A stretch of DNA of 27,471 bases from a virus: positions 1-27,471 of IMG/VR virus record IMGVR_UViG_3300048015_000168; one strand, given 5' to 3'. The notes under the pieces are model-generated. The model saw nothing but the letters and a program-made list of their open reading frames with translations. It ran no database searches and was not told the DNA's origin. The position numbers and the translations under genes were made by a program. How positions within the stretch are numbered: the stretch's first letter is position 1; every line of letters starts with the position of its first letter. This document shows positions 1-14,646 of this stretch, in pieces.

Positions 1-21
1 AAAAACTTCGGGGGAGGAGTC

Positions 22-903
22 ATGTCTAAGGATAATTTTTGGGTCATTAAGATCCCTCAATGGGATAAGCACAACGCCAAACAAAACAGACAAAAGTACT
101 ACCTAATGGACTGCCGAATGCACAAAGATCCGCAGTTTTTATCGCTATCGCCCGGGGCTCGACTCGCCTTCTTGTGGCTACTCGGGGAGGTAGCGACCAG
201 CACACGGCGAGAGGCTTGGTGTAGGCCGGTCGACCTACACCCGATCACCGGTCGTAAGCCGCCCGCTATACGGTCGTTGCTCGACGAGCTATGTAGTATT
301 GAATGGATTCAAATACTTAGCGGACCAAATTTATCACAAGCAAAGGTAAGTAAAGATAAGATAAGTAAAGATAAGGGGCGCACGCTGAAAAAGCCGAGGG
401 ACCCTGACCCTAAAACAGCGCCGCCGGAGGCGCCGCCCCCTGAGCAGAAAAGCTTGGTTCTTGTGGATGAGCCAAAGCCGGAGCCCGAGAAGCTGCCGAC
501 GGTGAGCGGGTACTACATCGACTGCTGGAAGCAGCGAGTCGGTGGAGGAACAAAATCTCCGGACCTTGGCCCGAAGCAGCATGGTCAGCTCGCCAGGTTG
601 AGCAAGGACCACGGGCACCGGCGCACGCTAGAGCTCATACGCTCCTACTTCCGGATGACCGACCCGTTCTACCTGAAGCGCGGCTATGACGTCGGCACTC
701 TCGTGGTGAGCATCGCGGCCATCAACCAGTTTGAGGCGTCGGGCAAGATCGTCACGAAGAAGGTCGTCGAGGCGTTCGAGGAAAAAGTTGACCAGGAGCA
801 GGGGACCGACAAGAAGCCTCGGAAGTCTCTCGAGGAGCTGGTAAGGGAGCGTGAGGAGATGTACGCGAATTCCGGCGAGCGGCCGAAACTGGAGGGTAGA
901 TGA
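22..903 (+). CDS. Putative phage replication initiator (replisome organizer-like), 293 aa
   Basis: Probably binds the phage origin and recruits the replication machinery. What is visible: an N-terminal part (about residues 25-100) with the length and helical look of a winged-helix DNA-binding domain; a low-complexity linker (about 107-165) that starts with a VSKDK-ISKDK duplication and is then rich in Pro, Glu and Lys; and a C-terminal helical part (about 170-260). This two-domain layout with a flexible linker is known for lambda O-type and lactococcal phage replisome organizers. The start is ATG with a strong GGGGGAGGAG site 5 bases upstream. The stop overlaps the next gene's ATG (ATGA), and that next gene looks like a helicase loader, which supports the role. 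The first 380 bases are visibly AT-richer than the rest. I see no signature motif that fixes the family, so the function is inferred from layout and context. Confidence 0.6.
   Translation: MSKDNFWVIKIPQWDKHNAKQNRQKYYLMDCRMHKDPQFLSLSPGARLAFLWLLGEVATSTRREAWCRPVDLHPITGRKPPAIRSLLDELCSIEWIQILSGPNLSQAKVSKDKISKDKGRTLKKPRDPDPKTAPPEAPPPEQKSLVLVDEPKPEPEKLPTVSGYYIDCWKQRVGGGTKSPDLGPKQHGQLARLSKDHGHRRTLELIRSYFRMTDPFYLKRGYDVGTLVVSIAAINQFEASGKIVTKKVVEAFEEKVDQEQGTDKKPRKSLEELVREREEMYANSGERPKLEGR
347..376 (+). repeat. Tandem 15-base repeat inside initiator gene, possible origin iterons
   Basis: Two adjacent 15-base units (347-361 and 362-376), each reading TAAGTAAAGATAAG plus one base, lie in an AT-rich stretch of the initiator gene and encode its VSKDK-ISKDK linker. 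In lambda and several lactococcal phages the replication origin is a set of iterons within the initiator gene's linker region. By analogy this may be the origin; with only two units this is an inference. Confidence 0.35.
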
Positions 904-1397
904 ACGTCACGCAGAAAGACCTAGAGTTCCAGATCGACCGCCTGGCCGACACGTTCGGCGACAAGGCCTTCACGAACGAAAGGAGGGCCATGCTCTGGAA
1001 CATTTTCAAGAACACGCCCTACGTCACGGTGATCGCGATCATCGACCACTTCATCCGCTCGTCCAGGTACGCTCCGATGCCTGCCGACATCGCCGAGCTG
1101 GTGGCCAGGTCCGGCGCCTCGGGCAAATCAAAGGCTCTGGGCGAGATCCGACTGCGGAGCGAGGCCAAGTGCCACGATTGCGCGGACTCGGGCTTCATAC
1201 GCCTCTCTCGGCTTCCTGCACATGAGCCATGGGCCAAGTACCTGGACGGCTCTGCTCCGTGCCATTGCCATCGTGGTAGGCAGCTCATCGAGGCGGGCCG
1301 GAGGCTCAAGGAGCCCCACGACTTCGGTCCGCAGTACAGCGACCACTGGTCCCGTAGCTACCGGATACTGAACCCGTGGGACGGGTTTGACCTGTGA
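900..1397 (+). CDS. Putative helicase loader-like protein with zinc-ligand-like cluster, 165 aa
   Basis: Likely helps bring the replicative helicase to the origin. The N-terminal 75 residues (TQKDLEFQIDRLADTFG, then NIFKNTPYVTVIAIIDHFI and a PMPADIAELV motif) resemble the helical helicase-interaction domain of phage loaders such as SPP1 G39P, where a conserved proline-containing segment precedes the linker. The C-terminal part has C91-x2-C94 and a C121-H-C123-H cluster that could bind zinc. Its ATG overlaps the stop of the initiator-like gene (ATGA), so the two are probably translationally coupled. The arrangement initiator then loader is common in phages without their own helicase, and no helicase gene is seen here. 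No AAA+ Walker motif is present, so it is not a DnaC-type ATPase loader. Confidence 0.55.
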   Translation: MNVTQKDLEFQIDRLADTFGDKAFTNERRAMLWNIFKNTPYVTVIAIIDHFIRSSRYAPMPADIAELVARSGASGKSKALGEIRLRSEAKCHDCADSGFIRLSRLPAHEPWAKYLDGSAPCHCHRGRQLIEAGRRLKEPHDFGPQYSDHWSRSYRILNPWDGFDL

Positions 1398-1441
1398 AGC
1401 GAACTATCGACAACGCCATCAAAATCCATTGAGGAGGAAAC

Positions 1442-2275
1442 GTGAACGAAGTGATGAAAAGCTTTAACGGCTATGAGGTGCGCATGCACATCGACGACAA
1501 GGGCCAGCCCTGGTGGGAGGCCTCTGACGTTTGCAAGATACTCGACTTGGACAACGTGTCGCAGGCGATGTCGAGACTTGAGAAGGAAGAATGGGGCTAC
1601 GTCAGCTCAAGTGATGACGTCGGGCGTCGCGCAGAAAAGATCTGCGTGAACGAGCCTGGCCTGTACGCACTCATTTTTGGGTCGAGGAAGCCGGAGGCGA
1701 AGGATTTCAAAAAGTGGGTTACTGGTGAAGTCCTGCCCACGATCCGTCAGACGGGCTCATACTCGACCGCCCCATTGTCACTCTCACAGCAGCTGCTCAT
1801 GTCGGCTCAGGCGATGGTCGAGATCGAGCGCAGACAGTCGGAGTCAGATGCCAAAATAGCCGCAGTCCAAACCGACGTGAGGGCTTTAGAGTCTAGGACC
1901 GATGCGAAGATCGAGGCGTTCGAGAAGAAGCTCATCGTCGAGCAGGTAAACCAGTTTCCGCCAGACTGTGAGACCCTGGAGCACATCACGGAGCGGTGCT
2001 TTGCGGGCATTACGGCGGCCCACGTCTCCACATGGCTGCACCACCTCGCCCATCCCGTCAGGAACTACCAGTACACCGACCAGGCCGGACAGATGTTCTC
2101 CAAAGAGGTCTGGCTCAAAGCGGGCCTTGAGCAAGCCGCGGACCGCCTGAGGATGGAGGCCCAGATCACGAAGCGGACGCCGAAGAACTTGATCTGCTTC
2201 CATCCGAGGCTCGGGCGATTCTTCGTGAAGACCGTCTCCCACAAGAAGAACCTCCTCGACAGTTTGGAGTCCTAG
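1442..2275 (+). CDS. BRO family (Bro-N) antirepressor-like protein, 277 aa
   Basis: Putative DNA-binding regulator. Residues 1-108 match the Bro-N fold by eye: GYEVRMHIDDKGQPWWEASD, a VCKILDLDNVSQAM helix-turn segment, a VNEPGLYALIFGSRKPEAKDFK segment (shown here without claim to exact boundaries) and the hallmark WVTGEVLPTIRQTGSY. Residues about 112-170 look like a coiled coil (AMVEIERRQSESDAKIAAVQ and onward), suggesting oligomerisation. Residues about 171-277 form a separate C-terminal domain rich in His, Trp and Arg that I do not recognise; many phage Bro-N proteins carry exchangeable C-terminal domains. The start is GTG with an excellent GAGGAGGAA site. In temperate phages such proteins act as antirepressors, but no repressor is visible in this window. 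Confidence 0.75.
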   Translation: MNEVMKSFNGYEVRMHIDDKGQPWWEASDVCKILDLDNVSQAMSRLEKEEWGYVSSSDDVGRRAEKICVNEPGLYALIFGSRKPEAKDFKKWVTGEVLPTIRQTGSYSTAPLSLSQQLLMSAQAMVEIERRQSESDAKIAAVQTDVRALESRTDAKIEAFEKKLIVEQVNQFPPDCETLEHITERCFAGITAAHVSTWLHHLAHPVRNYQYTDQAGQMFSKEVWLKAGLEQAADRLRMEAQITKRTPKNLICFHPRLGRFFVKTVSHKKNLLDSLES

Positions 2276-2347
2276 CATCGACGCTATGCGCCGTGAAGCA
2301 GATTTCTGTTTACATCGGCCAGGAACCGTCGCAATTAGTTCCACGTA

Positions 2348-2442
2348 GCGCTTCGGAAGAGCAATCGACACAGAAAATATTTACACCCGCACTCCCCAAG
2401 GGACGCGGGTCCTCGGACCCAGGCACTCTTCTTCCGAAGCGC
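2348..2442 (+). repeat. 12-base perfect inverted repeat enclosing a strong hairpin
   Basis: GCGCTTCGGAAG (2348-2359) is exactly complementary to CTTCCGAAGCGC (2431-2442). Between them lies a second perfect hairpin, GGGTCC-TC-GGACCC (2407-2420). A further pair, CCAGGC (2419-2424) with GCCTGG (2444-2449), overlaps these and could form only as an alternative or pseudoknot. The segment is in a gene-free stretch, so it may be a structured RNA, an operator region or a recombination site. No T run follows, so it is not an obvious terminator. Confidence 0.55.
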
Positions 2443-2465
2443 AGCCTGGTCTCCGGGGGACTTTT

Positions 2466-2699
2466 AAGCTGTGGGGAAATTCCTCGGTCAATTCGTGAAA
2501 ACGATGCCACACGAGGTTAGTAGTCCACTGGAGACACGCTCTTTTGTCGCTTATGTGACGCGAATGCAAATTCGCAAGAACGGCCTCAGTCGCGCGGGGC
2601 AACTGACTTTTGTTTACAGCCGGAGCGGGCGGTTGATGTGTGAGCGGTGTCCGCGTGGGGCAGCCTTGCCACGCCCCTTAGCCGCTCCGGCACTTTTTT
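2466..2699 (+). ncRNA. Candidate structured RNA, copy 1 of a duplicated element
   Basis: This copy shares blocks with the segment at 5516-5676: AAGCTGTGG, then TCC(A/G)CTGGAGACACGCTCT (18 of 19 identical; here 2524-2542), then ACTGACTT, then a GAGCGGTGTCC-like 3' block (2642-2652). GACAC plus GCTC (2533-2541) can pair with GAGC plus GTGTC (2642-2651) across one bulged base. A perfect 6-bp hairpin with a GCAA tetraloop lies inside (2560-2575). The 3' end has a 10-bp stem and a T run. The pairing just described crosses that terminator stem, so they would be alternatives or a pseudoknot. A 76-codon frame from GTG 2471 spans the region and is the competing explanation. Confidence 0.4.
2619..2699 (+). 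terminator. Terminator-like compound stem with T6 run
   Basis: GCCGGAGCGG (2619-2628) is perfectly complementary to CCGCTCCGGC (2682-2691), followed by ACTTTTTT (2692-2699). The 53-base loop contains an inner hairpin formed by GCGT (2653-2656) with ACGC (2671-2674) and GGCA (2659-2662) with TGCC (2667-2670). The long loop is atypical of a simple intrinsic terminator, but stem, T run and position just ahead of a gene fit a terminator or attenuator. Confidence 0.6.
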
Positions 2700-2713
2700 G
2701 AAGAGGAGTACTT

Positions 2714-2734
2714 ATGCGAGAAGACAATGAGTGA
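2714..2734 (+). CDS. Six-codon leader frame (MREDNE) overlapping the Gp157-like start
   Basis: The GAGGAG site at 2703-2708 is ideally spaced from ATG 2714, not from ATG 2727 of the next gene. ATG 2714 opens MREDNE and stops at TGA 2732-2734, overlapping the downstream ATG in another frame. Ribosomes may therefore enter here and restart on the Gp157-like gene, a translational coupling device; or ATG 2727 simply uses the same site with long spacing. No peptide function is implied. Confidence 0.3.
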   Translation: MREDNE

Positions 2735-3281
2735 AGCCGCGGGCAAGTCCCTGGTCGCGATGATGTCCGACGTCATGGCCATGGAGAACGCGCTGATCGA
2801 GTCGGGCGGCGAGCTGACCCCGGAGATGGAGCAGGAGTGGGCGCTTACGCAGGACAACTTCCAGGACAAGGTCGACCGGTACTACTACGTCATCGAGGGC
2901 CTCGTGTCCCGGGCCGAGTACTTCCGGTCGATCGAGCGGCAGGCGCAGGCCGCCCGGCGGGTGTTCGAAAGCCAGGAGGAGCGGCTGAAGAACAACCTGA
3001 AGTACGCGATGGTGGAGATGACCGTCGCGGAGCTGAGGGGACATGACTACCGCTACCGCCTCGTGCAGACCAAGCCGAAGCTGGTCATAGACCAGGACCT
3101 CCTGCCGGCCGCGTACTTCAAGGAGGAGGTCACTCGGGTGCCGGACAGGGCGCTGATCGAGCAGGACCTGGAGCTCGGCGTCCGGATACCCGGCGTCGAG
3201 CTGGTGGAGTCCGCGCACGTCAGGCCGTACGTCAACGCGGGAACGAAGGCTAAACAAGTCAAGGAGAATTCAATTGGGTGA
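2727..3281 (+). CDS. Gp157-like phage protein (siphovirus Gp157 family), 184 aa
   Basis: The family is found beside recombination and replication genes in many phages; its biochemical role is not settled, and linkage to phage resistance has been discussed for the Streptococcus thermophilus phage founder. Visible features: an acidic helical N terminus (ELTPEMEQEWALTQDNFQDK), a tyrosine-rich DRYYYVI segment, a long coiled-coil part (about residues 60-105, RSIERQAQAARRVFESQEER), and a small C-terminal beta-rich region ending with LELGVRIPGVELVES, which is characteristic of the family's tail. The length is usual. It sits two genes upstream of an ERF annealing protein, a typical neighbourhood. The start at ATG 2727 lacks its own well-spaced ribosome site; see the leader frame. 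Confidence 0.8.
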   Translation: MSEAAGKSLVAMMSDVMAMENALIESGGELTPEMEQEWALTQDNFQDKVDRYYYVIEGLVSRAEYFRSIERQAQAARRVFESQEERLKNNLKYAMVEMTVAELRGHDYRYRLVQTKPKLVIDQDLLPAAYFKEEVTRVPDRALIEQDLELGVRIPGVELVESAHVRPYVNAGTKAKQVKENSIG

Positions 3282-3438
3282 GATCGCGGTCATGATGCTG
3301 GACGGTATTTTGTGCGAGGGCTGCGGGGCGATAATGGAGGATATTATGGATGACCTGATGGACGAGGAAAAGGGCATTCTCGACGGGCCGGGACACTCCA
3401 TGAAGTGCGCGGGCTGCGCGGATGAGGAGGAGCAATGA
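3274..3438 (+). CDS. CxxC...CxxC microprotein, putative zinc binding, 54 aa
   Basis: A short gene starting at TTG 3274, 7 bases after a perfect AAGGAG (3261-3266). It overlaps the Gp157-like stop by 8 bases and its own stop overlaps the ERF start (ATGA), so it fits the operon exactly. The protein has C14-x2-C17 near the start (LCEGCG) and C45-x2-C48 near the end (MKCAGCADEEEQ), with H41 nearby and a strongly acidic helix between (EDIMDDLMDEE). Two CxxC knuckles suggest one zinc site. Very small CxxC proteins of this kind are frequent in phage early operons and are mostly uncharacterised. Confidence 0.7.
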   Translation: MGEIAVMMLDGILCEGCGAIMEDIMDDLMDEEKGILDGPGHSMKCAGCADEEEQ

Positions 3439-4274
3439 CAGACCGAGAGCTAAGGGATTCGGACGTCGATGACCTTGTCAAGGGGATGATCGACGACATC
3501 CGCTCTGCGGTTTACAGGATGACCTGCGAGTTCTCGGATGAGACCAGGCTGAAGGAGCTGCCGCTCGCCCTGGCCAGCGCACAGAAGGCGATCAAACCCC
3601 CGGTCAAGAACAAGAAGGTGGACTTCCAGCCGCAGGGCAAGCCGCGCGTGAAGTACAACTACGCCGACCTCGCCGACGTGATAGAGGCGATCCGCGAACC
3701 GCTCGCGGCCAACGGCCTGTCGTACTCCCATACCATGGGCTTTCAGTCGGACCAGTACGGAATGAGGACGGTCCTCATTCACTCCTCGGGCGAGCGATTG
3801 TCGACGTGGTATCCGCTGCCGCACCCTAAGGACATGCGCCCTCAGGAGTTCGGATCGGCCCTTACGTACGCGCGCAGGTACAGCATATCGTGCCTGGTGG
3901 GCATCGCGAGCGAGGACGACGACGACGGCCAGGCGGTCGCGCACGCCGACAAGCCGAAGCCCGCAGCGGCCGTCCAGCCCAAGCCGCAGCCGAAGGCGAT
4001 TCCCACCAGCCCCTCATCCGTTAAGCCGCCCGTGAGGAACGAGGCGCCGGCCTCCGAGGCGCAGGTCAAGAAGCTGTTCGCGATGGGCAAGGAGCGGATG
4101 ATCAGCCAGGACGTCCTGCGTGGAACGCTCAAGGGCCTCTACGGGATCGAGTCGACGAAGGACCTGAAGCGCTGGCACATGGACGAGCTCTACGAGACGC
4201 TCGCCGACCCCGACTGCGGTGACGCCAAGCTGATGGCCATGGTCGCGGCCAAGCAGAAGGAGGCTGGGCAGTGA
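3435..4274 (+). CDS. erf: ERF superfamily single-strand annealing protein, 279 aa
   Basis: Promotes annealing of complementary single strands in phage recombination, as P22 Erf does. Recognised from the order of family blocks: LALASAQKAIKPPVKNKKVD (about residues 44-63), YNYADLADVIEAIREPLAANG (74-94, boundary approximate), the HSSGERLSTWYPLP strand pair (116-129), QEFGSALTYARRYSISCLVG (137-156) and the acidic EDDDDG end of the core (160-165). A Pro/Lys/Ala-rich linker (about 168-205) leads to a small helical C-terminal domain (ASEAQVKKLFAMGKERMI), a common arrangement where the tail contacts partners or DNA. The ATG overlaps the previous stop. Neighbouring Gp157-like and RusA-like genes agree with a recombination module. 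Confidence 0.9.
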   Translation: MTDRELRDSDVDDLVKGMIDDIRSAVYRMTCEFSDETRLKELPLALASAQKAIKPPVKNKKVDFQPQGKPRVKYNYADLADVIEAIREPLAANGLSYSHTMGFQSDQYGMRTVLIHSSGERLSTWYPLPHPKDMRPQEFGSALTYARRYSISCLVGIASEDDDDGQAVAHADKPKPAAAVQPKPQPKAIPTSPSSVKPPVRNEAPASEAQVKKLFAMGKERMISQDVLRGTLKGLYGIESTKDLKRWHMDELYETLADPDCGDAKLMAMVAAKQKEAGQ

Positions 4275-4480
4275 CGCTGAGGGTAAAGTGCATCAAGTGC
4301 GGGGCGGAGTGCCCGGAGACGAGCACAGGGCTCTGCGCGCCCTGCCGTAAGGTGAAGTGCGCGAGGCCCGGCTGCGAGCGGCTGGTGCTGAGGAGGTCTG
4401 ACCGGACATTCTGCGCCGAGCACACCTACGGGAAGAGGGTCAGGCCCGACGAGCGCCGCTTTCTGGTGGAGGGCGTCTAG
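4271..4480 (+). CDS. Zinc-binding microprotein, paralog A, 69 aa
   Basis: Starts at GTG 4271 overlapping the ERF stop (GTGA). Cysteines at C7-x2-C10, C22-x2-C25, C30-x4-C35 and C48-x2-H51 form two plausible zinc sites, one CxxC/CxxC and one CxxxxC/CxxH. The core pattern TGLC-x2-CR-x-VKCA-x2-GCE-(x)-RLV-x-R recurs in the next gene, so the two are tandem paralogs. Basic residues between the knuckles suggest nucleic-acid binding, but nothing proves it. I do not recognise a named family; McrA- or HNH-type enzymes share such knuckles, but the protein is too short and lacks an HNH motif. Confidence 0.75.
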   Translation: MTLRVKCIKCGAECPETSTGLCAPCRKVKCARPGCERLVLRRSDRTFCAEHTYGKRVRPDERRFLVEGV

Positions 4481-4481
4481 C

Positions 4482-4709
4482 GTGAAGACCGGGAGGGAGA
4501 CGCGCAAGAGGGCCATCGCGAACTGCCAGCGCTGCGGAGACGGCATGCCCAGCCTGAACAAGACGGGGCTCTGCTTCAGGTGCCGGACCGTCAAGTGCGC
4601 GCACGAGGGGTGCGAGGAGCGGCTCGTGATCCGCGGCATGGCCAAGGGCTTCTGCAAAAGCCACGTCCAGAGGAACAAACCTAAACAGTATAGGGGAATA
4701 GACATATGA
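4482..4709 (+). CDS. Zinc-binding microprotein, paralog B, 75 aa
   Basis: Begins at GTG 4482, one base after the stop of paralog A, and ends overlapping the next ATG. The ligands line up with paralog A: C15-x2-C18, C31-x2-C34, C39-x4-C44 and C58-x2-H61, around the shared TGLC-x2-CR-x-VKCA core. It has an 8-residue longer, very basic N terminus (KTGRETRKRA) and one residue inserted after the GCE motif. DNA identity is only partial, so the duplication is not recent. The role is unknown; small basic zinc proteins in phage early regions often act as transcription or nuclease modulators. Confidence 0.75.
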   Translation: MKTGRETRKRAIANCQRCGDGMPSLNKTGLCFRCRTVKCAHEGCEERLVIRGMAKGFCKSHVQRNKPKQYRGIDI

Positions 4710-4987
4710 GCACATACCCGCACATAGAGAGCATTGGGCTGGAAATAGTTGAGATTAAGTTCGCAGCTTTTGGAGGCCTCCTCACTACCTGTTATGTCCG
4801 CGCCGACGAGCTTGAAGCCCTGTTGGCAAAGGCCAATGCTCCTGTGGCACTTAGCTACGACGAGTGGTGCGCGCGCGGGGGCGTTGACAGCGAGCGCGGA
4901 TACTACTCCGGCTACGGAGCTTACCTTTCAAAGTGGCGCGATGACCACGGAATACCTACGGACGTGAACTATGAGAAGTATAAATAA
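4706..4987 (+). CDS. Hypothetical protein, 93 aa
   Basis: No recognised family. The start ATG overlaps the previous stop (ATGA), and a GGGGAA site lies about 8 bases upstream. The sequence is a small mixed alpha/beta protein: an N-terminal strand-rich half (IESIGLEIVEIKFAAFGG), a short helix (ADELEALLAKANA), then a Tyr- and Gly-rich second half (SERGYYSGYGAYLSKWRDD). There are no membrane segments and no cysteine clusters. Composition shifts here to a lower GC than the preceding genes, marking the start of the AT-richer accessory block. Confidence 0.7.
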   Translation: MSTYPHIESIGLEIVEIKFAAFGGLLTTCYVRADELEALLAKANAPVALSYDEWCARGGVDSERGYYSGYGAYLSKWRDDHGIPTDVNYEKYK

Positions 4988-5383
4988 ATGGGCATGAATC
5001 AAATCGAGCTAAAAGACATTATAAAGAAGCACGGCAAGTGGCTAAAAAATGAGTATGGCTGCGCAAGGGCGGATCTGAGCTCTGCGAACCTGCGCTTTGC
5101 GAACCTGCAGTCTGCTGACCTGCACTCTGCGAACCTGCGCTCTATCAAGTTGGACTTTTACGAAGTCCTTTTGACGGCCATTCCCGAGGTGGCGGGACTT
5201 TACGATTCTCTCATGCGCGGCAAGGTCGATGGCTCGAAATATACTGGCGAATGCGCATGTTTGGTTGGAACAATCGCGAACGTTCGCAAGGTTGACGTCG
5301 ATACGCTTAAGAAAAATTCGAATCGACCTGCAGAAGTTTGGTTCCTCGGCATTCGCAAAGGCGATGTGCCGCAATCGAATTAG
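4988..5383 (+). CDS. Pentapeptide-repeat protein, ends at an in-frame amber codon, 131 aa
   Basis: Helical start (ELKDIIKKHGKWLKNEYG), then five to six pentapeptide repeats of the A(D/N)LxS type at residues 28-55 (ADLSS ANLRF ANLQS ADLHS ANLRS), which form one short right-handed beta-helix. A domain follows with YTGECACLVGTIANVRKV and SNRPAEVWFLGIRKGDVPQSN. From memory, related phage pentapeptide proteins continue past the latter motif with a residue, then VSxIT and a WIEEF-like end. Here the TAG at 5381-5383 falls precisely there, and the same frame continues VSDITRECIEEF. The gene is thus either truncated by a CAG-to-TAG change or read through. The start ATG follows directly on the previous stop, with a weak GAGAAG site. 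Function of the family is unknown. Confidence 0.8.
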   Translation: MGMNQIELKDIIKKHGKWLKNEYGCARADLSSANLRFANLQSADLHSANLRSIKLDFYEVLLTAIPEVAGLYDSLMRGKVDGSKYTGECACLVGTIANVRKVDVDTLKKNSNRPAEVWFLGIRKGDVPQSN

Positions 5384-5539
5384 GTGTCTGATATCACTCG
5401 CGAATGTATTGAGGAGTTTGCGGCCGAGCACAAGATTGAGCTTGCGAAGTACAGGCTTGTGTCGCGCCTCGAGTTCCTGAAGCGTTTAAGGATTAGTTTT
5501 GGGCGGCGGCGTGGGAAGCTGTGGAGTAAGCATCGTTAG
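5384..5539 (+). pseudogene. Displaced C-terminal part of the pentapeptide-repeat protein, beyond the amber codon
   Basis: In frame with the preceding gene, straight after TAG 5381-5383, runs a 51-codon open stretch beginning VSDITRECIEEFAAEHKIEL and ending in a basic tail (GRRRGKLWSKHR), stopped by TAG 5537-5539. The first dozen residues look like the expected continuation of the family motif. It has a GTG as first codon but no ribosome site, so separate translation is unlikely. The basic tail may itself run into the next structured element. Confidence 0.5.
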
Positions 5540-5676
5540 GCACATGCTCCGCTGGAGACACGCTCTGACCGGGGAATGACACTGACTTGGGTAAGGGCCT
5601 AGGCAACCTCTCGAAGTCTGCACCGAGTGCGCGGGCACTAAAGTCAAGGCCACGTAGCGAGTGTCCAGCGCTTTTT
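5516..5676 (+). ncRNA. Candidate structured RNA, copy 2 of a duplicated element
   Basis: Shares with 2466-2699 the blocks AAGCTGTGG (5516-5524), GTTAG, TCCGCTGGAGACACGCTCT (5548-5566; 18 of 19 identical), CGGGG, ACTGACTT and GTGTCC. The 5' block pairs with the 3' end: CGCTG (5550-5554) with CAGCG (5666-5670), GACAC (5557-5561) with GTGTC (5661-5665), and GCT (5562-5564) with AGC (5656-5658), with a GA bulge on each side. An internal AGTGC-GCGG-GCACT hairpin lies near 5625-5640. The closing stem is followed by CTTTTT (5671-5676). No open frame spans this copy, which argues for an RNA or DNA role. It is read in the same orientation and lies ahead of the next gene, as copy 1 does. Confidence 0.45.
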
Positions 5677-5704
5677 AACATCGCGGTTTAGCCGCAGGAG
5701 GCTT

Positions 5705-6409
5705 ATGAAAGCATTTTTTGGCAAGCAAGAAGTCAAAGACAAGTACGTGAATAGAGTCAAGGGCTATCGCGAAATGGATAACCTTATTCAAGGCACTGGG
5801 TGGGAAGAAGGGAAGGGCTGCGCGGTCGGATGCACTTTAGAAAATTACGATCATGCTCAATACGAAATTGAGTTAGGCATCCCCGAGTGGCTCGCAAGAC
5901 TTGAGGATACTATATTTGAGGGATTGCCTAAAGCCGAAGCGATGCTTTGGCCAGAGAAATTCCTCTCTGCGATTAACGTGGGCGCTGATTTGGAAAAGGT
6001 TAAAGTGCCATTCCTTATTCACATTTTAGAGAAAAATATCCTAACGTTAGATGCTCTGCCAGATATGAGCGCGTATCCAGACGTAGCGAATGCTATTGCC
6101 CTTTCACGCGCGGCGAATGTCGAAATGATTAGGTGTCGCCGTGAAGGGCTGCATTTGTCAGCGGCGGAGTCAGCGGCGAGATCAGCGGCGGAGTCAGCGG
6201 CGAGATCAGCGGCGTGGTCAGCGAGGTCAGCGGCGGAGTCAGCGGCGTGGTCAGCGAGGTCAGCGGCGGAGTCAGCGGCGTGGTCAGCGTGGTCAGCGGC
6301 GTGGTCAGCGGCGGAGTCAGCGTGGTCAGCGGCGGAGTCAGCGGCGAGATCAGCGGCCTACCTTTACTTCGCGAACAAATTGATTGAGATTTTAGAGGAC
6401 ACGAAATGA
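5705..6409 (+). CDS. Phage protein with Ser-Ala-Ala-X tandem repeats, 234 aa
   Basis: The N-terminal 150 residues form a globular part found in many uncultured-phage proteins: KGYREMDNLIQGTGWEEGKG, a CAVGCTLENYDHAQYE motif, IPEWLARLEDTIFEGLP and a WPEKFL segment. Residues 152-218 are 18 units of SAA(E/R/W) or SA(R/W), probably a long Ala-rich helix. A short conserved-looking end (YLYFANKLIEILEDT) closes the protein. Related phage proteins carry an Ala-rich repeat at the same place with differing lengths. The start has a strong GCAGGAGG site 5 bases upstream. The function is unknown. The repeat also leaves the +1 frame open (a basic QRR-rich shadow), which is not a separate gene. Confidence 0.8.
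   Translation: MKAFFGKQEVKDKYVNRVKGYREMDNLIQGTGWEEGKGCAVGCTLENYDHAQYEIELGIPEWLARLEDTIFEGLPKAEAMLWPEKFLSAINVGADLEKVKVPFLIHILEKNILTLDALPDMSAYPDVANAIALSRAANVEMIRCRREGLHLSAAESAARSAAESAARSAAWSARSAAESAAWSARSAAESAAWSAWSAAWSAAESAWSAAESAARSAAYLYFANKLIEILEDTK
6158..6358 (+). repeat. Tandem 12/9-base repeat coding for SAAX units
   Basis: Units begin with TCAGCG. Thirteen are 12 bases long (TCAGCGGCG plus GAG, AGA or TGG), four internal ones are 9 bases (TCAGCG plus AGG or TGG), and the last is a 9-base TCAGCGGCC. All lengths are multiples of three, so unit gain or loss keeps the frame. The near-identical units suggest recent expansion by slippage or unequal recombination. Confidence 0.9.
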
Positions 6410-6762
6410 CCTACAAACAAAAGATCGAAGGGCTACTGAGGCCCATGCGTAAGCGAGTAGAGAAGGCGACTCCTGGGCCATATGAAGCCCGCACTTGGGA
6501 GTTTAGCAATACCGCTTTAAGTGAAGTTTGGACTGAGTTTGGTTGGTATCAAAGGCTGCCGCGCGACTATAGCGAACCCACGATCGAGCTATTCGCCCAT
6601 TCCCGCACCGACATCGAGACGCTTCTCGCCCTCGTGGAGAGGCAGTCCGAAATTATTCATCAGGCAAAGACTTACTTTGAGCACGGATCTCAGGGCGCAG
6701 CGGATGATTTTGAAATTGCGCTCTTCGCCCTAGAGCAGGGACTCGGCGAAGGAGAGAAGTGA
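6406..6762 (+). CDS. Ead/Ea22-like phage protein, 118 aa
   Basis: Starts with ATG overlapping the previous stop (ATGA). The pattern VEKATPGPYEARTWEF followed by LFAHSRTDIETLLALVERQ matches the (A)TPGPW...(A)RTDIPxLLAEVxR signature of Ead/Ea22-like proteins found in the early regions of lambdoid and many other phages. Their function is unknown. The C-terminal part is helical and acidic. A GAAGGAGAGAAG stretch at its end serves as the ribosome site for the next small gene. Confidence 0.7.
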   Translation: MTYKQKIEGLLRPMRKRVEKATPGPYEARTWEFSNTALSEVWTEFGWYQRLPRDYSEPTIELFAHSRTDIETLLALVERQSEIIHQAKTYFEHGSQGAADDFEIALFALEQGLGEGEK

Positions 6763-6926
6763 AATCACCCCGTCACGCAGAACGCTGCAAAGAACTTATT
6801 GCGCGCGACGGGCTTTTTCATTTTGGCCTATTCATAATGGCAAAAACCAGTACTTGGTGTTTTATGGTTCGCGTTTGGAAGTTCCAAATTACCTTTACTA
6901 ACCTTTGGCCGGCGAGGCGCATGTGA
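6759..6926 (+). CDS. Small hypothetical protein, 55 aa
   Basis: Opens at GTG 6759, overlapping the stop of the Ead-like gene (GTGA), with AAGGAG (6749-6754) 4 bases upstream. The stop overlaps the GTG of the next small gene. It encodes a basic, aromatic-rich peptide (starts MKSPRHAERCKELIARDG; then FHFGLFIMAK and a Trp-rich TSTWCFMVRVWKF). No family is recognised. The support is positional: without it a 160-base hole would remain in an otherwise gap-free operon. Confidence 0.5.
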   Translation: MKSPRHAERCKELIARDGLFHFGLFIMAKTSTWCFMVRVWKFQITFTNLWPARRM

Positions 6927-7060
6927 TTCTCCTCACCTACCCTACAGCCCTTTTTATCTCGGCCTTCGCGTTGGTCGGAGCCTACACCGCAATTTCACTA
7001 TTAATTGGAGTTGCGAAACGGCTCACTTCAAAAATTGAAAAGCTTGGGCGCTTGAAGTGA
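6923..7060 (+). CDS. Small single-span membrane protein, 45 aa
   Basis: GTG 6923 follows a GCGAGG site and overlaps the previous stop; its own stop overlaps the next GTG. The peptide is a hydrophobic stretch (about residues 3-29, LLTYPTALFISAFALVGAY then TAISLLIGVA) followed by a basic end (KRLTSKIEKLGRLK). The topology is one transmembrane helix with a cytoplasmic basic tail. It could be a holin-like, superinfection-related or regulatory peptide. The neighbouring genes do not decide this, as no endolysin is visible. Confidence 0.6.
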   Translation: MILLTYPTALFISAFALVGAYTAISLLIGVAKRLTSKIEKLGRLK

Positions 7061-7296
7061 GCGAGTGGATTCGGGGCTTTCTTTGGGGCGTCACTGCGTT
7101 GTTCGTGATCAGAAGGCTTCTCCTGGTCATCACGGGCGGCGACGAAAAGCGAAGGCGCATCGACATCACATGGGCCTACTACACGGGCGCCAAGACAACG
7201 ATTGACCTGTTCTATCAAGGACATAAAGTTGAAGAGCTGACTCAAAAGCTTGATCAAACGATCGAGCACATCCTCAAAAAGGAGTTCGAAAGGTGA
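7057..7296 (+). CDS. Membrane-anchored small protein, 79 aa
   Basis: Begins at GTG 7057 overlapping the previous stop. One N-terminal hydrophobic segment (about residues 7-27, GFLWGVTALFVIRRLLLVIT) is followed by a charged stretch (GGDEKRRRIDITWAYYTGAK) and a C-terminal amphipathic helix (KVEELTQKLDQTIEHILKKE). Together with the preceding membrane peptide it forms a coupled pair of inner-membrane candidates, which may act together. No recognised family, and no spanin or holin signature beyond the membrane segment. Confidence 0.6.
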   Translation: MSEWIRGFLWGVTALFVIRRLLLVITGGDEKRRRIDITWAYYTGAKTTIDLFYQGHKVEELTQKLDQTIEHILKKEFER

Positions 7297-7499
7297 ACCG
7301 CGAAGCCAGACGCAGGCAGTTCAAGATGCACAAGCGCACGAGACTCACGACCCTAGAGGAGGCGAAGGCGTTCTTGGCCAAGCAAAAGGTCTCCCATTAC
7401 ATGACGGATGAGGGCGAACAGATGCCCGTAAACCTCGCCGATGAGCCGCAGATCAACCGCATCCTCAGGCACTTCTACGGGCTCAAGATTGAAGGATAG
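7293..7499 (+). CDS. Hypothetical protein, 68 aa
   Basis: Opens at GTG 7293, overlapping the upstream stop, after GGAGTTCGAAAG. A basic N terminus (NREARRRQFKMHKRTRL) leads into a helical segment (TTLEEAKAFLAKQKV) and a short C-terminal part ending HFYGLKIEG. No family recognised. It lies directly before the HNH-like gene, whose likely TTG start is inside its last codons, so the two are probably coupled. Confidence 0.6.
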   Translation: MNREARRRQFKMHKRTRLTTLEEAKAFLAKQKVSHYMTDEGEQMPVNLADEPQINRILRHFYGLKIEG

Positions 7500-7761
7500 G
7501 GCACTCAGGCACAGCTATCGCGCGATGCGCTGCGCGGCCTGCAACCGCTTAGGATGTGATCCCGCCCACATCATAACGTATGCGGCCTCTCGAAAGGACA
7601 GCCCGGAGAACATCATGCCGCTCTGCCGGGCGCATCACACTATGCAGCACACGATCGGCTGGCTCAGGTTCACCGAGCGCTTTCCGCAAGTGGGACAAGC
7701 CTTGTTCGTGCGCGGTTGGCATTTGACCGACAAAGGCAAGTTCATCAGAATCTCAGAATGA
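7489..7761 (+). CDS. HNH-like putative nuclease (DUF968/Ref-like), 90 aa
   Basis: Zinc-knuckle nuclease candidate. The segment KDRALRHSYRAMRCAACNRL, then DPAHIITYAASRKDSPENIM and PLCRAHHTMQHTIGW fit the HNH treble-clef layout: CxxC, a D-P-A-H-I catalytic region, then LCRxHHxxxH with paired His. Lambda-type NinG/Ref/DUF968 proteins share this arrangement and sit in recombination regions. Because the residues KDRALRHSYRAMRC resemble the family's usual lead-in, I place the start at TTG 7489 within the upstream gene's end; ATG 7525 is the alternative. No good ribosome site precedes either, so translational coupling is likely. The RusA-like gene follows with an ATGA overlap. Confidence 0.65.
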   Translation: MKDRALRHSYRAMRCAACNRLGCDPAHIITYAASRKDSPENIMPLCRAHHTMQHTIGWLRFTERFPQVGQALFVRGWHLTDKGKFIRISE

Positions 7762-8189
7762 CAGTAAGCCTGTATAAGATGCCGATGCCGCCCAGCGTAA
7801 ACTCGCTTTACTGCAATGTGCCCAAGGTCGGCAGATGCAAGACACAAAAGTACAAGGCGTATGAGCTCGAGTGCTTCCGCTGGAAGATGCTCAACATGAG
7901 CCAGGTCCTTAGGGCCGACGCCATAGCCCTTAAGGTCGGCAGGTCAGGCCCCTCCATGTGGTGCTTGAGCCTCAGGCACTACTTCTTCTTCCCCAGGAAG
8001 CAGCTCTACACGCTCAAGGGCGACCTCAAGGCCAACGACACCTCAAACCGCATCAAGGCCCACGAGGACATCCTCTCCAAGCTCCTCCGCGTGGACGACC
8101 GCTACTTCTGGTCCCAGAGCACCTCAAAGGCCGTCACCACGCAGGAGCACGGGTACGTCGACGTCACCCTGGAGCTCATCGAGATCTAA
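7758..8189 (+). CDS. rusA: RusA-like Holliday junction resolvase, 143 aa
   Basis: Cuts four-way DNA junctions during phage recombination and before packaging. Start ATG 7758 overlaps the previous stop (ATGA); an earlier in-frame start would intrude on that gene. The sequence opens with the family's LPxPPSVN motif (MPMPPSVNSLY, residues 8-18). Acidic residues expected for metal binding appear as D94-x2-N97-x2-K100-x3-D104 and then D113-D114 (VDDRYFWSQ), compared with the DxDN...LLDAL...DD signature of RusA. The first Asp position is D-T-S-N rather than D-x-D-N, a variation seen in divergent members. Length is close to the family's usual 120-140 residues. Confidence 0.8.
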   Translation: MTVSLYKMPMPPSVNSLYCNVPKVGRCKTQKYKAYELECFRWKMLNMSQVLRADAIALKVGRSGPSMWCLSLRHYFFFPRKQLYTLKGDLKANDTSNRIKAHEDILSKLLRVDDRYFWSQSTSKAVTTQEHGYVDVTLELIEI

Positions 8190-8192
8190 TCA

Positions 8193-8216
8193 GGCCTTGC
8201 AAACTGCCTTAAAGGC
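8193..8216 (+). repeat. Small inverted repeat between resolvase and terminase genes
   Basis: GGCCTT (8193-8198) is complementary to AAGGCC (8211-8216) with a 12-base loop, in the short gap after the resolvase stop. No T run follows. Possibly a weak mRNA processing or regulatory hairpin at the early/late boundary; the significance is uncertain. Confidence 0.3.
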
Positions 8217-8232
8217 CCCATATCGTGGGCAT

Positions 8233-8652
8233 ATGCCGAGAATTAAGAAGCGCGTTTTAGACGAGAAGGAACTCAAGCAACTCGAGGGAATGGCCGCGAT
8301 ACGGTTGCCCCTGGACCAGATCGCGACGCTATTGGGGTTCGGAAGCGAGAGAGCGCTGAGCCTCTATTTGGCGCGGGACACTGCTGCGCGGCTCCGAATG
8401 AATGAGGGTCGCGGAAAGGCCGCGGCCAACTTCAGGCAAACGGCCTACGCCCTTGCCATGAAATCAGGCCCCCAGCAGATGCGCGCCGTCGAGTTCTGGG
8501 GGCGCACCCAGGAGGGCTTCAAGACCACCGACGCCATCGAGCTGTCGGGGCCGAGCGGCGGCGCCATCGAGACCAAGGACATGAGCAAGGAAGAGGTCCA
8601 GGAGGCGGCGATGGCGATGGCCCGTAAGCTGTGCCTCGTCGAAGATGAATAG
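8233..8652 (+). CDS. terS: Terminase small subunit, 139 aa
   Basis: Recognises the packaging site on phage DNA and hands it to the large subunit. The start chosen is ATG 8233; an upstream in-frame TTG at 8197 is possible but less likely. The N-terminal half contains a helix-turn-helix (about residues 11-45: EKELKQLEGMAAIRLPLDQI, then ATLLGFGSERALSLYLARD). The following GRGKAAANFRQTAYALAMKSG and AVEFWGRTQEGFKTTDAI match the repeated helical pattern of phage small terminases, where Trp-Gly/Leu-Lys-Arg-x-x-x-Gly ends the oligomerisation core. The acidic Met-rich tail (KDMSKEEVQEAAMAMARKL) would contact the large subunit. The location directly before the large subunit supports the call. Confidence 0.8.
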   Translation: MPRIKKRVLDEKELKQLEGMAAIRLPLDQIATLLGFGSERALSLYLARDTAARLRMNEGRGKAAANFRQTAYALAMKSGPQQMRAVEFWGRTQEGFKTTDAIELSGPSGGAIETKDMSKEEVQEAAMAMARKLCLVEDE

Positions 8653-8671
8653 TCCCTTGTGACACACTGGT

Positions 8672-8688
8672 CATACTAAAGTAGTATG
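8672..8688 (+). promoter_or_regulatory. Perfect hairpin abutting the TerL ribosome site
   Basis: CATACTA (8672-8678), loop AAG, TAGTATG (8682-8688). The last G of the 3' arm is the first base of the GAGGA ribosome site (8688-8692) for TerL. As RNA the stem could limit ribosome access and set the terminase subunit ratio; as DNA it is a compact palindrome that could be an operator. Confidence 0.5.
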
Positions 8689-8696
8689 AGGAATTG

Positions 8697-10181
8697 ATGG
8701 CCTCGGATCACGAAAGGTTCATAGCATTGGGGACCAAAGCCCTGGTCGAGAAGGCCAGGGCCGGTGGCATCAAGGCGTTCGTGAGCTTGACGTTCCCCGA
8801 GTACGAGTGGAGCTGGCACCACGTGCTCACCTGCCACTACCTGAACAAGTTCATCAAGGGCGAGATCAAGCGGCTCATGATCTTCGAGCCTCCGCGCCAC
8901 GGCAAGAGCGAGCTGACCTCCCGCAGGCTGCCTGCCCTGATCCACGGGCTCTACCCGCATGACGAGATCCTGGCCGTAAGCTACAACTCCGAGCTGGCCT
9001 CGGACATGACGGTAGACGTGCAGCGCATAATGGACACTGAAGTTTTCCGCCACATATTCCCGCACGCCCAGATAACGCCTGAGGGCAAGGCCAGCAAGTA
9101 CAAGCGCACTCGGAACGAGCACGAGCTGCACCCTTGGAAGGTCGACGGCAAGGTTTTTCCGATGCTGGGCAGTTACAGGTCTGCGGGCGTGGGCGGCTCC
9201 TTCACGGGTCGCGGCGGGAATTGGGTGCTCATCGACGACCCGGTAAAGAACGCGGCGGACGCCGACTCGCCGAGCTTCCGCGACGGCATGGAGAAGTTCT
9301 ACACCTCAACCATACGCACCAGGCTCGAAAAGGACGCGCGCATCCTAATTACCATGACGAGGTGGCGAAACGACGATTTGGCAGGACGCTTGCTCAAGCT
9401 CGCCGAGTCGAACCCGGACGCCGACCAGTGGACCGTGGTCTCCCTTCCGGCGATCAAGGAGGACAGATCCAACCCTTACGATCCGAGGGAGATCGGGGAT
9501 CCGCTCTGGCCCGGCAAGTTCGACAGGGCAGCCATGCTGGCCACTCAGGCCTCTGTCGGGTCCCGCGACTGGGCTTCGCTCTACCAGCAGCGGCCGAACG
9601 TCGAGGGCGGGAACATCATCCAGTCCTCGTGGATCCGCTACTACAAGGTCCTGCCGCCCCGATTCGACCAGGTCATCCAGAGCTGGGACTTCGCGGTCAA
9701 GGACAAGACCAGCTCAGACTACACCGTGGGCCAGGTCTGGGGCCGCATCGGCACGGACAAGTACCTGCTCGATGAAGTCAGAGGCAGGTGGTCGTTTCCG
9801 ATGGCCTGCGAAGAGGTCATCAAGCTCTCGCAGAAGTGGAAGGACGCGCACAAAAAGCTCATCGAGGCGAAGGCCAATGGTCCTGCTGTAGTCCAAACAT
9901 TGCGGCAGCGCATCACGGGTCTAGTAGAGGTCGAGCCGCGTGGCGACAAAGTTTCGCGCGCGTATGCGGTCGCGCCTGAGTACGAGTCCGGCCATGTGTA
10001 CTATCCCTTAGAGGAGATCGCCCCGTGGATGCCCCAACACAGGGACGAGGTCTGCAATTTCCCGCGGGACAAGAACGACGACCGTGTCGACGCTGAGACA
10101 CAAGCCCTTGATCATCTGCGCAAGCCCGTGACGTTCCGCGCTCCGATCGGCGGGCACGGTAGCGGCCAGGTCTTCACGTAG
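8697..10181 (+). CDS. terL: Terminase large subunit, 494 aa
   Basis: ATP-driven DNA packaging motor and nuclease. ATPase domain: Walker A PPRHGKSE (residues 65-72), Walker B WVLIDDP (176-182, with D180-D181), and a coupling motif ITMTRWRNDDL further on. Nuclease domain (RNase H fold): first Asp in SWDFAVKDKTSSDYTV (D331), middle acidic residues around YLLDEVRGRW, and a last Asp in KNDDRVDAETQALDH (about 459-473). Together these give a complete two-domain enzyme of ordinary length. The start is ATG 8697, spaced 4 bases from GAGGA; TTG 8694 is in frame but less likely. The C-terminal 20 residues after LRKPVTF are Gly-rich, probably the portal-contacting tail. Confidence 0.95.
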   Translation: MASDHERFIALGTKALVEKARAGGIKAFVSLTFPEYEWSWHHVLTCHYLNKFIKGEIKRLMIFEPPRHGKSELTSRRLPALIHGLYPHDEILAVSYNSELASDMTVDVQRIMDTEVFRHIFPHAQITPEGKASKYKRTRNEHELHPWKVDGKVFPMLGSYRSAGVGGSFTGRGGNWVLIDDPVKNAADADSPSFRDGMEKFYTSTIRTRLEKDARILITMTRWRNDDLAGRLLKLAESNPDADQWTVVSLPAIKEDRSNPYDPREIGDPLWPGKFDRAAMLATQASVGSRDWASLYQQRPNVEGGNIIQSSWIRYYKVLPPRFDQVIQSWDFAVKDKTSSDYTVGQVWGRIGTDKYLLDEVRGRWSFPMACEEVIKLSQKWKDAHKKLIEAKANGPAVVQTLRQRITGLVEVEPRGDKVSRAYAVAPEYESGHVYYPLEEIAPWMPQHRDEVCNFPRDKNDDRVDAETQALDHLRKPVTFRAPIGGHGSGQVFT

Positions 10182-13088: not shown

Positions 13089-13426
13089 TCCTGTTGCTCT
13101 CGCTGCTGATAAGCGCCTGCCAGGCCATGGACATCTACACGATCCCGCACGTGGTTCCGCTGAGCTACACGAAGGTCGTGGCGAACGCGCCAGTCTCAGG
13201 GCTCAGCGTCACAGTCAAGGTCGTCAATGCTGTGACGAATGCGACTCTTCTCTCGAGCACCCCTGCGCCTGAGGTCGCAACTGGCGCGGGTGTTTACACG
13301 TACAACTGGACCAGCGGTCTGACAGCAGACACACTCTGTCAAGTTACGTACACTGTTGGCTCAACAACTGTCTATAAAGAGTTCATCTACATCACATTGG
13401 GTGCCTTCGGCGCCAGGGGGACATAA
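13085..13426 (+). CDS. Putative lipoprotein-like beta protein, 113 aa
   Basis: Start ATG 13085 overlaps the previous stop (ATGA). A start upstream at 12986 would overlap the neighbour completely and is rejected. The N terminus MILLLSLLISACQAMD contains a hydrophobic stretch and a lipobox-like ISAC, which would place a lipid on Cys12. The rest is an Ig-like beta domain: LSVTVKVVNAVTNATLLSST, then GAGVYTYNWTSGLTADTLCQ and VTYTVGSTTVYKEFIYITLG. Comparable 'V..V.I...G......Y.Y.W...' domains occur in phage tail and baseplate proteins such as the next gene's N-terminal part. It may be a virion protein or an exported membrane protein. Confidence 0.6.
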   Translation: MILLLSLLISACQAMDIYTIPHVVPLSYTKVVANAPVSGLSVTVKVVNAVTNATLLSSTPAPEVATGAGVYTYNWTSGLTADTLCQVTYTVGSTTVYKEFIYITLGAFGARGT

Positions 13427-14646
13427 TGTCTGTAAGCGTAAAGGGTCTGCGGTTTGACTATCAGGCGTTCAACGGAACGACGGGCCTTACTGACGTCACG
13501 GGTAAGCTGTTCGTAGGCGGCGTTCAAAAGGCCAGCGGCTTGGCCTTCACAGAGCTCATGAGCGGGACCTCTGGGACGGGCGTCTACACCCTGTTCGTCA
13601 GCGGAACCACGCTCGCGGGATACGGAGTCGCTGCGCTGAACGCGGACAACTTCGTTGAGGTCATCGCGACATCGGCGAGCGTTCCGTATCCGACACCGAT
13701 CAAGCTGCTGGGACAGGTCGCGACCAACGACGACGTAATCGCGCTCATCGGCTCGACCTCTACGGGCACTGTCAGCGGTGATCTCGCGCAGATCTACAGC
13801 CGCATCGGTGCGCCCGCGACCACATCCGTTTCGGGCGACATCCTCGCTTTGCAAACGCAGCAGAACACGATTTTCAGCCAGCTGACGGCCTTGACGAACG
13901 CAGCGCAATCTGGCGCGGGGATCGCAGCGGCTCTTCCATCGTTCCTCACGGGCAGCTCCGCGAACACGTACTTGATACCGCTCACCATCCTGAACAATGA
14001 CGGAGCGCTTGTCGCGCCCGCGGCTGCCCCCATTATTGGACTCAAGAACGCGGCGGGAACGGACCGGGGCTCCTACCTGACGGGCTCATCTGGAACGCCC
14101 GCGACCGTGAACGCCACGCTTGTATCGACTGGCGAGTACACAGTCGGCATGGTCGTCCCGGCCGGAGCCCCTGAAGAGGAGTTGATCTTCAGCATGAGCT
14201 ACACCGTCAACGGCAACGCAGTCGTGAAGTTCTACGTGTGCCAGCTCGTGCAGGACGCCGCAACCTCTGGTTACGCCCTTCAGACCACTTTGCTGAGCGT
14301 TCAAACGACAGTGAACTCTATCAACTCAGCCGTGACGAATGCGACATACGGCCTCTCTGCGCTTCAGGCCTTGCTCGCGAACGGGACGTACGGTCTCGCG
14401 GCCCTGCAGTCGCTGCTCGCGAACTCAACCTACGGTCTGTCTGCGCTCCAGTCGATCCTCGCGAACGGCACATACGGGTTGTCCGCCTTGGCGGGCCTCT
14501 TGAACAACGCCACGTATGGGCTCGCAGCGCTTCAGGCTCAGAACGTCGCGACTCAGGGGACGGGGTTTGTCTCCGCGACGAACAGCTTGGTCGCGATCAG
14601 CGCGGCGATCGCGAAGATCCCTCAATATGGTGGCAAGGGCATCTAA
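13426..14646 (+). CDS. Putative fibre or baseplate protein with TYGLSALQ repeats, 406 aa
   Basis: ATG overlaps the previous stop. The protein has two similar beta domains, residues about 1-110 (SVKGLRFDYQAFNGTTGLTD and YTLFVSGTTLAGYGVAALNA) and about 165-280 (NTYLIPLTILNNDGALVAPA, then STGEYTVGMVVPAG). A helical linker (IYSRIGAPATTSVSGDILAL) separates them. At residues 305-374 are five 14-residue units of the N(A/G/S)TYGL(S/A)ALQxLLx type. Such 'NATYGLSAL' repeats are frequent in phage fibres and are thought to form trimeric coiled coils. The gene thus probably encodes an oligomeric surface or attachment protein. Confidence 0.7.
   Translation: MSVSVKGLRFDYQAFNGTTGLTDVTGKLFVGGVQKASGLAFTELMSGTSGTGVYTLFVSGTTLAGYGVAALNADNFVEVIATSASVPYPTPIKLLGQVATNDDVIALIGSTSTGTVSGDLAQIYSRIGAPATTSVSGDILALQTQQNTIFSQLTALTNAAQSGAGIAAALPSFLTGSSANTYLIPLTILNNDGALVAPAAAPIIGLKNAAGTDRGSYLTGSSGTPATVNATLVSTGEYTVGMVVPAGAPEEELIFSMSYTVNGNAVVKFYVCQLVQDAATSGYALQTTLLSVQTTVNSINSAVTNATYGLSALQALLANGTYGLAALQSLLANSTYGLSALQSILANGTYGLSALAGLLNNATYGLAALQAQNVATQGTGFVSATNSLVAISAAIAKIPQYGGKGI
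14338..14547 (+). repeat. Five 42-base repeats coding for TYGLSALQ units
   Basis: Five successive 42-base units code for 14 residues each: NATYGLSALQALLA, NGTYGLAALQSLLA, NSTYGLSALQSILA, NGTYGLSALAGLLN, NATYGLAALQAQNV. Fourteen residues equal two heptads with Leu and Tyr at regular places, consistent with a coiled coil. The DNA units differ at many positions, mostly silently, so they are not fresh copies. Confidence 0.85.

Follow-up and report, generated by a model that had tools for sequence, protein, structure and literature searches.

A family of structured RNAs in tailed phages, with two divergent, probably partly decayed copies in one phage record

EAR is a processive antitermination RNA of Bacillus, and would be the model for a gene-independent RNA that acts in cis. 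Phage HK022 carries two put copies per genome (putL and putR), whose RNAs are about 70 nt long, fold into a pair of stem-loops and affect, in cis, the transcription that follows them, putL lying just downstream of a promoter (PMC9378689). In cis, put RNAs suppress both pausing and termination. GOLLD and ROOL are structured RNAs of phages and prophages that were found by comparative genomics and whose function is unknown; they are complex, measure about 660 to over 800 nt, include pseudoknots (ROOL) and often lie near tRNA islands (PMC12286853). The family described here is 133-280 nt long, has four short conserved helices and lacks an Rfam match, which distinguishes it from GOLLD and ROOL and, on the last point, from EAR. 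Like put it is a phage RNA, and some members likewise start right after a promoter; compared with put as published, its members are longer, are built from a closing stem (P1), a two-part hairpin and a further hairpin (P4), and show no preference for a co-directional downstream gene. A put-like role, raised in an earlier sequence-only reading of this DNA, is therefore possible but not favoured, as length, fold and co-directionality all differ.

The window, that is the whole 27,471-nt stretch of IMG/VR record IMGVR_UViG_3300048015_000168 that was analyzed, contains two segments that the sequence-only reading took for divergent copies of an uncharacterized structured element. The blocks shared by the two are present as described: TCCACTGGAGACACGCTCT (2524-2542) and TCCGCTGGAGACACGCTCT (5548-5566) are identical at 18 of 19 positions, AAGCTGTGG occurs at 2466-2474 and at 5516-5524, and GTTAG, GGGG, ACTGACTT and GTGTCC are found in both copies in the claimed order. 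Taken from the window alone, the case for two related copies is moderate: a direct 18/19 match arises by chance in 20% of shuffled windows, the upstream 9-mer common to both copies has a p of about 0.03, and alignment scores between the flanks of copy 1 and copy 2 have p values of 0.31 (upstream) and 0.05 (downstream). Folded as single sequences, the segments gave z scores of -1.1 and +0.26, neither better than its own shuffles. The relationship was settled by a covariance model from other phages, which ranks both places best in the window.

Relatives were sought by pattern scans of IMG/VR, starting from the blocks common to both copies. In viral_contigs, a 17-mer scan gave five matches, none recognized as a member, and a 14-mer scan gave matches that were nearly all coding or chance, one of which (L036) was later shown to be a member. 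The pattern GCTGTGGN{20,50}TGGAGACACGCTC had no match, and with the gapped pattern GTTAGN{2,16}CCRCTGGAGACAC a single locus was convincing, L156, which like copy 2 has GGCGTGGGAAGCTGTGG upstream. The relaxed pattern AGCTGTGGN{22,52}CCRCTGGAGA returned 101 stretches, with the extended consensus CGGCGTGGRAAGCTGTGG...CCACTGGAGACACGC in about 40, and the scans together yielded about 40 distinct phage loci with one architecture. Downstream lies a second signature that no scan demanded, a 5-bp hairpin with a loop of approximately AGU(C/A)GCGN, and directly after it a strand that can pair with the bases preceding CGGCG. A seed of 39 members, window excluded, was used for the analyses below. Because the recruiting pattern demanded AGCTGTGG and CCRCTGGAGA, the invariance of these two strings is partly selection. 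The viral scan was run without CGGCGTG or CACGC, a later filter wanted approximate GCGTGG and CACGC, and P4 and P1 were under no selection at any stage, except when P1 was located. One locus listed early as a member, L166 from a Saganbacteria MAG, was not confirmed by the covariance model.

Members share the order P1 (of any sequence), CGGCGUG-GRAAGCU-GUGG, a variable arm, CCAC-UGGAGA-CACGC, a variable region, the 5-bp hairpin, the second P1 strand and often a U-run. P1 is the closing stem that unites both ends and adjoins P2/P2b and P4; P2/P2b is a hairpin with the conserved internal loop GRAAGCU / UGGAGA, P4 is the 5-bp hairpin with its conserved loop, and the two variable regions make up the remainder. 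Of the 39 members, 37-39 form each of the six inner P1 pairs, a count flattered by the fact that the limits of P1 were first placed by seeking complementarity; its offsets to both sequence motifs are constant, and several of its positions show all four Watson-Crick types. Across the 39 members (MAFFT alignment A2, window excluded), 94.3% of cells are paired, vs 74.1% when shuffled and 28-43% when slid, and two-sided changes occur at 18 of 22 pairs. RNAalifold without constraints recovered the same helices. Outside the seed, seven matches from six further elements or copies retain P1 and P2 and include new pair types, e.g. GCGCU/AGCGC and AUGUG/CAUAU, in an alignment fitted to the model. P1 and P4 are free in sequence, their pairing is kept and G-U pairs are tolerated. 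The covariation supporting an RNA family is overwhelming, and the proposal of divergent copies of an uncharacterized structured phage RNA is thereby borne out by homologs.

The details of the original proposal fared less well. Its fold, in which GACAC pairs with GTGTC, is wrong: GTGTC is found downstream in only 3/39 members, and the true pairings are CACGC with upstream GCGUG (P2) and CCAC with GUGG (P2b). Two of the blocks first listed, AAGCTGTGG and CCRCTGGAGACACGC, characterize the family. GTTAG lies in the arm of only three of the 39 members and ACTGACTT downstream in none, so these two blocks and GTGTC are coincidences or specific to the copies; the GGGG block is not conserved across the family. 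Overlooked at the time was the 3' loop signature, AGTCGCGC (2588-2595) in copy 1 and GTAGCGA (5654-5660) in copy 2. The 76-codon frame starting with GTG at 2471 finds no support as a gene, as across the members only 12/117 forward frames are open.

The covariance model, R1, was built without the window, and a short calibration makes its E-values approximate. Its best two matches in the window are the two copies, copy 2 at 51.3 bits (E 1.2e-12) and copy 1 at 20.7 bits (E 2e-4; cmsearch with filters off), and the third-best has an E of 0.92. The copy 1 match is weak: its E is 0.0037 over 513 kb, the weakest among the matches listed. R1 had no match in 40 control phage records, relatives of the window phage included. 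P2 and P2b around GRAAGCU/UGGAGA are complete in copy 2, and copy 1 forms P2b alone; P4 with its typical loop is present in copy 1 and, by inspection and with one mismatch, probably in copy 2. A P1 directly abutting CGGCG and P4 is absent from both copies, and because P1 is missing in the canonical register we call the copies divergent and partly decayed. The parts of the two copies given below, and the hairpin after copy 1, are on the plus strand.

Copy 2 extends over 5499-5676, of which R1 covers 5499-5614, and the P4 hairpin and T-run, found by inspection, reach 5676. The string CGGCGTGGGAAGCTGTGG (5507-5524), identical to the family consensus, supplies the 5' strand of P2 (5509-5513), the internal-loop strand and the 5' strand of P2b (5521-5524). 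In CCGCTGGAGACACGC (5549-5563; sequence and R1) the 3' strand of P2b (5549-5552), TGGAGA (5553-5558) and the 3' strand of P2 (5559-5563) follow each other. By inspection, the probable P4 (5648-5666) pairs GGCCAC with GTGTCC, with one C-U mismatch, around the loop GTAGCGA (5654-5660), of the same 7-nt type as in L210 and L203; the 3' GTGTCC is thus most likely one strand of P4. Instead of this hairpin, which it missed, R1 took 5614 as the close of P1. The P1 candidates of copy 2 are all alternatives to the canonical register, 5499-5506/5607-5614 (R1) and 5480-5486/5667-5673 (inspection), and the copy ends in a T-run (5672-5676). Copy 2 may still fold its core. An attC-like reading of its GTTAGGC was abandoned, since it does not suit copy 1. 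The next gene behind copy 2, ORF 5705-6409, contains an imperfect tandem repeat of about 12 nt (6157-6357) that encodes SAA(W/E/R)SA units, and elsewhere in the window ORF 13426-14646 contains four repeats spaced 42 nt (14336-14532).

Copy 1 was matched by R1 (cmsearch) at 2443-2608, with the conserved part at 2466-2600. Its AAGCTGTGG (2466-2474; sequence and R1) holds the internal-loop strand AAGCT and the P2b 5' strand GTGG (2471-2474), without the CGGCGTGG that stands before it in the family. Its CCACTGGAGACACGC (2525-2539; sequence and R1) comprises the P2b 3' strand (2525-2528), the loop TGGAGA (2529-2534) and the P2 3' strand (2535-2539). P4 (2583-2600; sequence and model pairs) joins GCCTC and GGGGC across the canonical loop AGTCGCGC, the commonest P4 loop in the family. 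The 5' strands of P1 and P2 are lost, and P2b and P4 are kept; with P2 lost, copy 1 is probably a remnant. Directly after it, outside the conserved fold, an inverted repeat, GCCGGAGCGG/CCGCTCCGGC with T6, forms a terminator-like hairpin (2619-2698). Just 5' of copy 1 lies a 20-nt inverted repeat (2341-2360 / 2430-2449, 85% complementary), with the potential to fold into a separate branched structure.

Rfam 15 (4227 families) gave no match to the window at the gathering threshold and none that was credible, and neither permissive Rfam searches of both copies and of L156 nor a search of five member loci matched a family. A search of the open-access literature for exact consensus strings found none. 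Noncoding RNAs of phages are a known genre, but this family is absent from Rfam 15. By blastn, a program weak for short blocks, both copies and one strong member had no homolog among cultured phages and plasmids.

The carriers found are viruses of uncultured bacteria, many otherwise unrelated, and are spread over several terminase groups or none. The nearest relative of the commonest carrier terminase (28% identity) is from a Silvanigrella (Bdellovibrionota) phage, which is without the RNA. Among 101 Dependentiae genomes one has the RNA, on a MAG contig that looks like phage because its translations, by reading, include polymerase-, primase- and integrase-like proteins. No constant neighbor gene family was found among carriers; in one (L257:1068-2840) the RNA is directly followed by a gene for a 590-aa protein that by eye resembles a GroEL-type chaperonin. 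Records have 1-3 copies, with close tandem pairs spaced about 15-20 nt in those of L199, L247, L225 and L204. A subtype, GGCGTGAAGTCGCTG...CTGGGACACGC, stands in tandem before a standard copy at L204:6004-6197 and L225:273-512, in phage records of about 155 kb, and L178 has copies on opposite strands within 1 kb, at 226-415 (+) and 1072-1238 (-). Seven records whose capsid protein is 76-81% identical to that of the window phage differ from it in the early region and lack an R1 match. Comparison of window positions 1-8700 with L152-L155 (capsid 76-81% identical) shows early regions that are almost wholly different, i.e. strong mosaicism. Searching with Gp157-like and Bro proteins brought up no relatives of use, and a capsid scan of genome_contigs had no match.

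A sigma70-like promoter whose -10 element ends 2-5 nt before P1 was found in 9/39 members (vs 2.2% of control positions), and a T-run of at least four just after P1 in 21/39 (vs 6% of controls). GC-rich carriers, window included, are mostly without a recognizable promoter. Among 36 members, 30 are followed by a co-directional gene, which equals the background of 83% (ORF calls mechanical); four members lie between genes that both run on the opposite strand, and one (L187) ends at a convergent terminase. An RBS and start codon lie within 60 nt in 16/39 members. The promoter before P1, the U-run after it, the varied neighbors and co-directionality at background favor a stand-alone RNA acting in trans. 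The window pair belong to this tailed-phage RNA family as copies that look partly decayed, and a typical member is probably of the stand-alone kind. Such a member would be a small transcription unit in which the promoter ends at P1 and a U-run follows, and its product would be a stand-alone RNA with its ends paired in P1. Acting in trans, the RNA may present its internal loop and hairpin loop to a single conserved partner that binds there. A host protein or machine is the likeliest candidate, as the RNA persists across phages without common neighbor genes.

That a recognizable promoter is present in only 9/39 members counts against a stand-alone RNA, and the chief competitor is an element that acts on transcription in cis. 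Like put or EAR, such an RNA, in a leader or between cistrons, would bind either RNA polymerase or a factor and govern whether transcription terminates at the U-run or beyond it. The flanking promoter and U-run would suit it too, and positions independent of any gene are what processive antitermination would predict. It keeps weight because of the nearby RBS and start codons in 16/39 and because the gap between tandem copies could not hold a second promoter. The background level of co-directionality, the four members between opposite-strand genes, the end of L187 at a convergent terminase, and a fold and length unlike put all speak against a cis element, and we regard it as unlikely. Strict conservation limited to two loops within freely drifting helices, the two variable arms and the tandem arrays would also suit a ribozyme that cleaves itself, or a processing element, whose catalytic core of P1 and conserved loops releases the ends of transcripts; as no Rfam ribozyme family matched and promoter and U-run appear to set the ends in many members, this is improbable.

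A position that varies, copies in tandem and an integrase predicted near L168 and L203 could instead point to a recombination or protein-binding site at the DNA level. Helices P1 and P4 that keep pairing while free in sequence and tolerate G-U, flanked by a directional promoter and U-run, make such a site very improbable. Least probable of all is a chance resemblance, over 19 bases, between two unrelated segments of the window: such a match is common enough in shuffled windows, but both segments are the best window matches of a model from other phages, and for copy 2 a chance match is excluded.

The stand-alone, trans-acting RNA thus remains the preferred reading. Loops that are kept while helices drift imply selection for a shape that something recognizes, and the presence of 1-3 copies across phages without common neighbors suggests a job common to many phages. 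R1 is a ready covariance model for annotation, and the RNA a compact target for study. Tentatively, a small RNA of unrelated phages might bind a conserved host machine via its two loops, with RNA polymerase, the ribosome or a defense protein as candidates, and could reprogram or inactivate that machine during infection.
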